The notes under the pieces: model-generated
Told to the model about the DNA's origin: nothing
Seen by the model: the letters and a program-made list of their open reading frames with translations, nothing else
Databases searched by the model: none
Shown here: positions 8,694 through 10,175 of the stretch, one piece after another
Layout of the letters: each line of letters opens with the position of its first letter
Numbering within the stretch: the first letter of the stretch is position 1
From: Azospirillum sp. TSH58
GTDB taxonomy: Bacteria > Pseudomonadota > Alphaproteobacteria > Azospirillales > Azospirillaceae
Direction of reading: 5' to 3'
NCBI RefSeq assembly: GCF_003119115.1
Contig: NZ_CP022364.1
Span: forward strand, 954,501-1,018,500
Length of the DNA: 64,000 bases
Position numbers and translations under genes: made by a program

Positions 8694-8767
8694 TTGTGCG
8701 GCGCACAAGATTCTTTGTTGACTCCACGGACCAATGCCCATAGTTTAGCCATTGCTGCACTGCAGCA
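8694..8767 (+). promoter_or_regulatory. Phasin 1 promoter with two TGC-N3-GCA palindromes (candidate PhaR sites)
   Basis: The element contains, in order: palindrome TTGTGCGGCGCACAA (8694-8708), -35 TTGACT (8718-8723), a 17-base spacer, -10 TAGTTT (8741-8746), and palindrome TGCTGCACTGCAGCA (8753-8767) at the expected start of transcription. Both palindromes contain TGC-N3-GCA; the second contains CTGC-N3-GCAG, which matches the published PhaR consensus from Paracoccus. PhaR represses phasin genes until polyhydroxyalkanoate accumulates. The rest of the 8467-8884 gap shows no gene. Confidence 0.75.
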
Positions 8768-8884
8768 TTTTCGGGCCCGGAACCGTCCGGGCTCCCCAAC
8801 GCAGCCGGTCTGCGCCCCGCAGGCGGACGGTCCGCCGCTCCGGGTTTTGCGCGCCGGGCTTCGACGAAGGAAGGAACGCAAGGC

Positions 8885-9421
8885 ATGACGACCGTGACGA
8901 AGGCCAAGCCGGCCCCCGCCCCCACCCAGGCGTTCGAGAGCGCCGCCGCCCAGGCCAAGGAGCAGGTCGAGGGCTTCGTCAAGGCCGGCCAGGAGCAGGC
9001 CGCGAAGACCTTCGAGCAGACCGCCTCCGCCACCAAGGAGCAGGTCGAGAAGCTGTCCGCCCAGCTCCTGAAGATCTCCGCCGAGCTTCAGGCCCTGAAC
9101 AAGGCCAACGTGGAAGCGCTGATCCAGAGCGGCAGCATCGCCACCCAGGGCGCGGAGGAGCTGACCCGCGAGGTGACCGCCTACGCCCAGGCCTCCTTCG
9201 ACAAGTCGGTCACCACCGGCAAGGCCTTGCTGACCGCCAAGTCGCTGAAGGAGGTCGTCGATCTCCAGAGCGAGTATGTGAAGGCCAGCTTCGACGCCTT
9301 CGTCGCGGAGTCGTCCCGCCTCCAGGGCATCGGCACCCGCGTCGCCACGGCGGCCCTGACCCCGCTGAAGGACCGCGTGTCGGTGACCGTCAGCACCCTG
9401 TCCAAGCCGATCGCCGCCTGA
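8885..9421 (+). CDS. Phasin family protein (first of two)
   Basis: A 178-residue, almost entirely alpha-helical, Ala/Lys/Glu-rich protein with the phasin_2 pattern: QVEGFVKAGQEQAAKTFEQ, ELQALNKANVEALIQSGSIA, AQASFDKSVTTGKALLTAKS and KEVVDLQSEYVKASFDAFV. Phasins coat polyhydroxyalkanoate granules in the cytoplasm and control their number and size. A Pro/Ala-rich N-terminus (KAKPAPAPTQAFE) precedes the helical part. A close paralogue follows at 9690 with its own matching promoter, so the pair looks like a tandem duplication with retained regulation. Confidence 0.92.
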   Translation: MTTVTKAKPAPAPTQAFESAAAQAKEQVEGFVKAGQEQAAKTFEQTASATKEQVEKLSAQLLKISAELQALNKANVEALIQSGSIATQGAEELTREVTAYAQASFDKSVTTGKALLTAKSLKEVVDLQSEYVKASFDAFVAESSRLQGIGTRVATAALTPLKDRVSVTVSTLSKPIAA

Positions 9422-9442
9422 CGCGTCCGCATGGCGTGACCA

Positions 9443-9476
9443 CGAAGCCCGGCCGTTCCCCGACGGCCGGGCTTCG
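9443..9476 (+). terminator. Hairpin after phasin 1
   Basis: Stem CGAAGCCCGGCCGT / ACGGCCGGGCTTCG with a short CCCCG-type loop lies 22 bases after the stop. There is no T-run, so termination may be weak or the hairpin may protect the transcript end. Confidence 0.6.
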
Positions 9477-9511
9477 CGCGTGAAGGGGCCGGCAGGGACG
9501 CGTCAAAGTTT

Positions 9512-9583
9512 TTGTGCACCGCACAAAATCCCGTTGACAGCCGCCGGAACCTGCCCTAAGTTTAGCCATGTTGCATTGCAGCA
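9512..9583 (+). promoter_or_regulatory. Phasin 2 promoter with the same two palindromes
   Basis: The layout repeats that of phasin 1: TTGTGCACCGCACAA (9512-9526), -35 TTGACA (9534-9539), a 17-base spacer, -10 TAAGTT (9557-9562) and TGTTGCATTGCAGCA (9569-9583, one mismatch from a perfect palindrome). The shared parts are the dyads, the promoter hexamers and the stretch AGTTTAGCCAT; the bases between them differ, which argues for selection rather than recent duplication. Confidence 0.75.
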
Positions 9584-9689: not shown

Positions 9690-10175
9690 ATGACCGACAA
9701 GTTCGCCGCCGCCACCAAGACCTTCGAAGACGCCGTGTCCGCCGCCAAGCAGAACGTGGACGGCCTGGTCAAGGCCCAGCAGGAGCAGTTCGAGAAGGCC
9801 TCGGCCCAGATCCTGAAGGGCTTCGACGAGCTGACCGCCCTGACCAAGGGCAACGTCGACGCCGTCGTGAAGTCGGGCACCATCGTCGCCAAGGGCGCCG
9901 AGGAAGCCGGCAAGCAGGTCGCCACCTTCACCCAGTCCTCGCTGGAGAAGAGCGCCGCCACCGGCAAGGCCCTGCTGGCCGTCAAGACCGTCCAGGAGCT
10001 GGTCGAGCTGCAGAGCAGCTTCGCCAAGGCGAGCTTCGAGACCTTCGTCAAGGAGAGCGCCAAGCTGCAGGAGCTGTCGCTGAAGACCGCCAAGGACGCC
10101 TTCGCGCCGATCAACGACCGCCTCCAGGTCACGGTCGAGACGCTGTCCAAGCCGGTCGCGGCGAAGGCCGCCTGA
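9690..10175 (+). CDS. Phasin family protein (second of two)
   Basis: A 161-residue phasin: KQNVDGLVKAQQEQFEKASA, KGFDELTALTKGNVDAVVKS, FTQSSLEKSAATGKALLAVK, QELVELQSSFAKASFETFVK and a C-terminal QVTVETLSKPVAAKAA. It parallels the upstream phasin almost block by block (both end in VTVSTLSKP or VTVETLSKP). It should bind the surface of polyhydroxyalkanoate granules. It is followed by a strong terminator, so each phasin is probably its own transcription unit. Confidence 0.92.
   Translation: MTDKFAAATKTFEDAVSAAKQNVDGLVKAQQEQFEKASAQILKGFDELTALTKGNVDAVVKSGTIVAKGAEEAGKQVATFTQSSLEKSAATGKALLAVKTVQELVELQSSFAKASFETFVKESAKLQELSLKTAKDAFAPINDRLQVTVETLSKPVAAKAA

Follow-up and report, generated by a model that had tools for sequence, protein, structure and literature searches.

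Each of two tandem genes in Azospirillum sp. TSH58 for phasins, which form a coat on bioplastic granules, is preceded by a promoter with two palindromic sequences, or dyads, one upstream of the −35 element and one over the predicted start of transcription. This raises the questions of which protein recognises the two dyads, whether both belong to the same one, and how two sites would act on a single promoter. The window analysed is a stretch of 64,000 nucleotides, and the positions below refer to it unless a contig or locus is given.

Two phasin promoters with a common layout

Both promoters consist of TTGTGC-N3-GCACAA, TTGAC as the −35, an element resembling a −10 and, close to the predicted start, TGY-TGC-N3-GCA-GCA; the −10 boxes and start sites are predictions made from the sequence. 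The features are:

8694..8708, no strand: upstream dyad of promoter 1, TTGTGCGGCGCACAA (TTGTGC-GGC-GCACAA, exact match); predicted distal PhaR operator
8718..8723, + strand: −35 element TTGACT of promoter 1, read from the sequence
8741..8746, + strand: predicted −10 element TAGTTT of promoter 1, 17-base spacer from the −35, overlapping the block AGTTTAGCCAT at 8742-8752
8753..8767, no strand: downstream dyad of promoter 1, TGCTGCACTGCAGCA (TGCTGC-ACT-GCAGCA), over the predicted start; predicted proximal PhaR operator
8885..9421, + strand: phasin gene 1, 178 aa (Pfam Phasin_2, 1.5e-23; TIGR01841 above cut-off, TIGR01985 below cut-off)
9512..9526, no strand: upstream dyad of promoter 2, TTGTGCACCGCACAA (TTGTGC-ACC-GCACAA, exact match); predicted distal PhaR operator
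9534..9539, + strand: −35 element TTGACA of promoter 2, read from the sequence
9557..9562, + strand: predicted −10 element TAAGTT of promoter 2, 17-base spacer from the −35, with the block AGTTTAGCCAT at 9559-9569
9569..9583, no strand: downstream dyad of promoter 2, TGTTGCATTGCAGCA (TGTTGC-ATT-GCAGCA); predicted proximal PhaR operator
9690..10175, + strand: phasin gene 2, 161 aa (Pfam Phasin_2, 6.3e-26; TIGR01841 above cut-off)

The paired dyads at the twin promoters are real, and the near-identical layout described in the initial annotation holds in each part, from the exact upstream dyads, the two −35 elements and the 17-base spacers to the downstream dyads at the predicted starts. The Phasin_2 and TIGR01841 matches of both downstream genes likewise bear out their description as phasin promoters; the two proteins are paralogues with 51% identity in the alignment. 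The centres of the dyads are separated by 59 bp in promoter 1 and 57 bp in promoter 2, and the two upstream dyads lie 818 bp apart. It had also been claimed that the bases between the elements differ, which is so for the −35/−10 spacer and for the gap upstream of the −35 (9 bases against 7), but not for AGTTTAGCCAT, which is identical in both promoters.

The exact sequence TTGTGCN3GCACAA occurs at three places in the whole genome (7,244,074 bases; reversed control 0), two of which are the phasin promoters, and when up to two mismatches were allowed the window gave 3 matches against 1.93 expected, only the two promoter copies being perfect. A looser form, TTGTGCNNNGCANNA, gave 10 matches per strand in the genome compared with 1 per strand for the control. 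The matches to it fall at 17 distinct places, and in 15 the centre is RNY (purine-any-pyrimidine) though the pattern left N3 free; TGNTGCRNYGCANCA was found at 25 places, against 4 for its control. TGCRNYGCA occurs 11 times in the window, and the only pairs 55-62 bp apart are those of the two phasin promoters. The form CTGCN3GCAG alone was rejected as evidence, its 4 matches in the window against 2.71 expected being not above chance.

Relation to known PhaR sites

The genome has a single phaR gene (C4:425064; PF07879, 9.5e-31), which scores 154 bits against the TIGR01848 equivalog cut-off of 109.45 and is transcribed divergently from a gene that matches PhaC_N weakly. The four dyads in the window, and both dyads of a further phasin promoter at C5:133 kb, show no mismatch to TKNTGCRNYGCANMA, the core of the palindrome YTKNTGCRNYGCANMAR deduced for Ralstonia eutropha (PMC12849132). 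The window dyads also fit the Bradyrhizobium diazoefficiens consensus TGCRNYGCASMA with 0 mismatches (PMC6201568); this comparison was run with N at the S position, which the last letters, CAA and GCA, satisfy. With a phaR gene in the genome and dyads that fit a published consensus, the earlier proposal that PhaR is the likely regulator is well supported by sequence. The view that the upstream site falls outside the described PhaR model is not, since TTGTGCACTGCACAA, with the same arms, is a listed PhaR site in the phaP1 promoter of Sinorhizobium meliloti (PMC12542648).

Two PhaR sites per phasin promoter have been published for S. meliloti (PMC12542648), B. diazoefficiens (PMC6201568) and R. 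eutropha (PMC12849132). In S. meliloti, where PhaR is also called AniA, phaP1 and phaP2 each have two palindromes; the phaP1 promoter is bound efficiently, either of its two copies sufficing in gel shifts, and a site listed for dhe, whose binding column reads NE, contains TTGTGCGGCGCACAA, identical to the dyad at 8694 (PMC12542648). The placing differs, as the S. meliloti pair flanks the −35 (its listed positions at phaP1 are 65 and 47 relative to the start; PMC12542648), whereas in Azospirillum the second dyad lies over the predicted start with the centres 57-59 bp apart. A closer match in position is R. eutropha phaP1, where PhaR protects a region directly upstream of the −35 and another around the start, known as BS1 and BS2 (PMC12849132, citing earlier footprints). 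A third R. eutropha site is predicted inside the coding region (PMC12849132), while neither Azospirillum phasin gene contains TGCRNYGCA; phasin gene 2 has CTGCAGAGCAG at 10008-10018, in the older CTGCN3GCAG form of the R. sphaeroides site cited in PMC3206438. PhaR sites are also described for B. diazoefficiens phaP1 and phaP4, and phaP1 there has two footprinted sites (PMC6201568). The sites of Herbaspirillum seropedicae PhbF share the TGC-N3-GCA core, and phaP1 and phbF fusions are repressed there, but the footprint described is of one site, in the phbF promoter (PMC3206438). Paired PhaR operators at phasin promoters are already a known kind of arrangement, of which the Azospirillum pairs are very probably a well-preserved example. 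A search of the open-access literature by title and abstract opening found no description of PhaR sites in Azospirillum, two papers on A. brasilense mentioning PhaR in general terms in the text available (PMC6761214, PMC10934627); among the literature matches listed for PhaR looping and for PhaR comparative genomics, nothing was on point.

Conservation in the family and class

The named relatives comprised 10 loci, nine of them in records with Azospirillum in the title and the tenth in a record titled Roseomonas genomospecies 6. The two phasin frames and two exact upstream dyads are present in 10/10, so that conservation of the upstream dyad in related Azospirillum, on which the initial annotation had staked its case, is upheld at both promoters. 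When the 11 sequences of promoter 1 are aligned, neither TTGAC nor the arms of the two dyads show any change, while the −35/−10 spacer varies. At promoter 2, L030 and L031 have TGTTGC..GCAACA as their downstream dyad against GCAGCA in the others, which is still a dyad.

Across the family, TTGTGCN3GCACAA followed after 4 to 14 bases by TTGAC was found in 61/82 genomes and 9/13 genera, and the whole layout, with TGCN3GCA 22-48 bases further on, in 54/82 genomes and 8/13 genera; in the sampled genomes of the class the whole layout was present in 31/385. The reversed control gave 0 in each case, and the genome studied here is included in all three genome counts. All 30 loci kept from the 87 rows of family matches to the upstream part have a phasin frame. 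The 31 class genomes all fall among the 231/385 that carry PF07879 (genome lists compared by eye), a co-occurrence with a probability of 5.6e-8 if genomes were independent, which is overstated given kinship and genome size.

The seven genomes with the upstream part and without the whole layout all belong to genus g10. The frame after each of their seven sites is weakly similar to phasin (phmmer against phasin 1, 1.1e-6 to 2.1e-5), and the downstream half of the layout, CGCACCGCA, is one letter off, with CGC..GCA for TGC..GCA. In this genus (L079-L084 and L087; seven genomes) each phasin promoter has, besides the pair, an additional RNY dyad some 130 bp further upstream. A phasin was found in all 28 family genomes without the whole exact layout, and in 26 of these the 600 bp upstream of the best phasin match contain two TGCRNYGCA dyads 55-62 bp apart, compared with 1/5600 dinucleotide shuffles and 0/28 when the far ends of these loci were read. 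Of the 26 relaxed pairs, 24 enclose a TTGAC; those of L098 and L099 do not. The two misses, L077 and L095, have only the downstream dyad, as do the first phasin of G017 (L101) and that of G042 (L102).

The family and class together gave 103 distinct promoter strings. The dyad centres are 57-59 bp apart in 84 of them, within a full range of 48-69, and the distance from the start of the −35 to the centre of the downstream dyad is 42-43 bases in 86; the gap between the upstream dyad and the −35 varies from 5 to 9, with each value represented. The predicted operators adjoin the −35 and cover the predicted start, placed to block RNA polymerase, and these positions are conserved in family and class. 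The two-operator PhaR promoter is in this way extended to Azospirillum and its family, and the 103 natural strings, with their narrowly limited variation in site sequence and spacing, form a resource for distinguishing steric block from looping. The set may also be useful for tuning phasin or bioplastic output in Azospirillum.

Steric block or repression loop

Repression of phasin genes by PhaR, or PhbF, is known from S. meliloti, R. eutropha and H. seropedicae, with a published model of release on binding PHB (PMC12542648, PMC12849132, PMC3206438). From these relatives we infer PhaR binding, repression and release by PHB in Azospirillum, and consider it highly probable that the PHB-sensing repressor has two operators at each phasin promoter and acts through a steric block that PHB lifts. 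Without PHB, PhaR, probably as dimers, would occupy the start and the DNA immediately upstream of the −35, so excluding RNA polymerase. As granules form PhaR would move onto the PHB surface and leave both operators empty, and phasin would then be made in step with the granule surface.

The main alternative is that a PhaR tetramer bridges both dyads into a LacI-like form of the repression loop raised in the initial annotation. The two operators do have a LacI-like arrangement, a function that the R. eutropha authors call conceivable (PMC12849132), the concentrations of H. seropedicae PhbF were calculated assuming a tetramer (PMC3206438), and the spacing of the dyads in the 103 strings is narrow. 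At 10.5 bp per turn, however, 57-59 bp is about 5.5 turns, so that two dimers would lie on opposite faces of the helix, which is expected to be unfavourable for a short loop. The variable gap to the −35 also argues against looping, as does the S. meliloti finding that a single copy is enough for PhaR binding (PMC12542648). Fixed centre-to-centre spacing was considered as a proof of looping and set aside, because the correlation between the upstream gap and the downstream distance (−0.44 in the family set, 0.02 in the class set) is confounded by kinship. A structure search with the PhaR sequence, made for its oligomer state, returned two weak matches, neither of them a PhaR. The opposite-face placing is not decisive, though it suits a steric block better than a short loop; the loop is unproven and seems to us unlikely, and steric block is the most likely mode of action of the two sites.

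A probable single recognition class at both positions

A further suggestion was that the downstream dyad binds PhaR and the upstream TTGTGC dyad another regulator. It draws on the preference of the arms for position, as in the 26 relaxed pairs the right arm GCACAA is found at 21 upstream sites and at no downstream site. Against this, N3 is RNY at both the upstream and the downstream dyad in 103/103 strings, where the search pattern imposed no RNY, so that both dyads look like one recognition class. Nor are the arms kept apart: the left arm of the upstream site is other than TTGTGC in 20 of the 26 relaxed pairs (TGTTGC in 10, TTTTGC in 7, TGCTGC in 2 and TATTGC in 1), and with 21 right arms GCACAA both arm types therefore meet within single sites, such as the hybrid TGTTGC-N3-GCACAA, while 5/103 downstream sites have TTGTGC as their left arm. 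Taken with the use of TTGTGC-N3-GCACAA by PhaR itself at S. meliloti phaP1 (PMC12542648) and the fit of both dyad types to one published consensus without a mismatch, this makes a second regulator very improbable. The other possibility given in the initial annotation, that the upstream dyad is a second PhaR-type site, is in good agreement with the shared RNY core and the fit to TKNTGCRNYGCANMA and TGCRNYGCASMA. It is harder still to credit that the likeness of the promoters is left from tandem duplication and the upstream dyad functionless, as, although the phasins are paralogous and the promoters share AGTTTAGCCAT, the dyads are kept while the spacers change, the upstream part is present in 9/13 family genera and the whole layout in distant class members, and the pair recurs at the third phasin gene at C5:133 kb.

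Within the two-operator PhaR reading, the position of the arms might mean that the operators are unequal. Under a positional rule for the Azospirillaceae the upstream site would tend to end in GCACAA facing the −35 and the downstream site to have TGY/RCA arms, about 5.5 turns away. Two PhaR dimers might then clamp the promoter from opposite faces; with sites of unequal affinity, PhaR would leave one before the other as PHB accumulates, and the phasin response would be graded rather than on/off. We put this forward tentatively and think it doubtful as a whole; the five downstream sites with TTGTGC, all in the class set, speak against a general positional rule.

Other candidate sites in the genome

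Eight genes in the genome match Phasin_2. Three have the dyad pair, namely the two tandem phasins and the gene at C5:133 kb, where the centres are 62 bp apart, and three have one dyad near the 5′ end: that of L009 is 15 bp ahead of the first nearby candidate start and further ahead of others, that of L010 is 57 bp ahead of a candidate start and that of L012 about 180 bp ahead of the first. No dyad was seen in the stretch examined at L008 and L011. In R. eutropha PhaR has an activating role as well, at phaP3, where its sites are further upstream (PMC12849132), so control at the single-site Azospirillum genes could be of either sign.

The co-occurrence that had been expected upstream of phaC and phaR was not borne out. 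In the stretches examined there is no TGCRNYGCA at the phaC loci L103 and L104, nor in L105, read in the same search for operators at phaC and phaR, and the one in L004 sits past the 3′ end of phaR. The search for an autoregulatory operator between phaR and the divergent phaC-like gene found no TGCRNYGCA, only CTGCGACCGCAG, in which CTGC and GCAG are separated by N4. N4 spacing is allowed at R. sphaeroides PhaR sites. The published PhaR sites in the papers cited here, as far as these are available, have N3 spacing. The phaZ locus (L126, C2:1463 kb) has one weaker dyad, CTTTGCAGTGCAGCG, on the reverse strand at 675-689. It is at the 5′ end of the frame for PHB depolymerase and precedes most of the candidate starts; in other species phaZ has been published as a target of PhaR. 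This distribution agrees with that in S. meliloti, where phaZ has a PhaR site, phbC was found to have none and the phaR region is bound weakly (PMC12542648).

Several other sites lie near genes of different function. The third exact copy of TTGTGCN3GCACAA (L001 1501-1515, C1:490972), which has no evident TTGAC −35, is flanked by a gene for a family 2 glycosyltransferase and one for a right-handed beta-helix protein; the published PhaR targets of S. meliloti include some in exopolysaccharide genes (PMC12542648). At L119/L120 (C2:2330254 and 2330320) a promoter-like pair of RNY dyads 66 bp apart, TGCTGCGCTGCAACA and TGTTGCGCCGCAACA, stands upstream of a GNAT acetyltransferase gene and, judged by its sequence, is a possible non-phasin target of PhaR. 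A single dyad in L114 (1501-1515, C2:1708894), TGTTGCGGTGCAACA, precedes a lactate/malate dehydrogenase gene by about 145 bp, with a divergent succinyl-CoA ligase-like gene about 90 bp away, a possible link to central carbon metabolism. Finally, the dyad TGTTGCGGCGCAGCA (L123 1501-1515, C5:461474) is located between a divergent dicarboxylate symporter gene and a gene for a Cache-domain histidine kinase.
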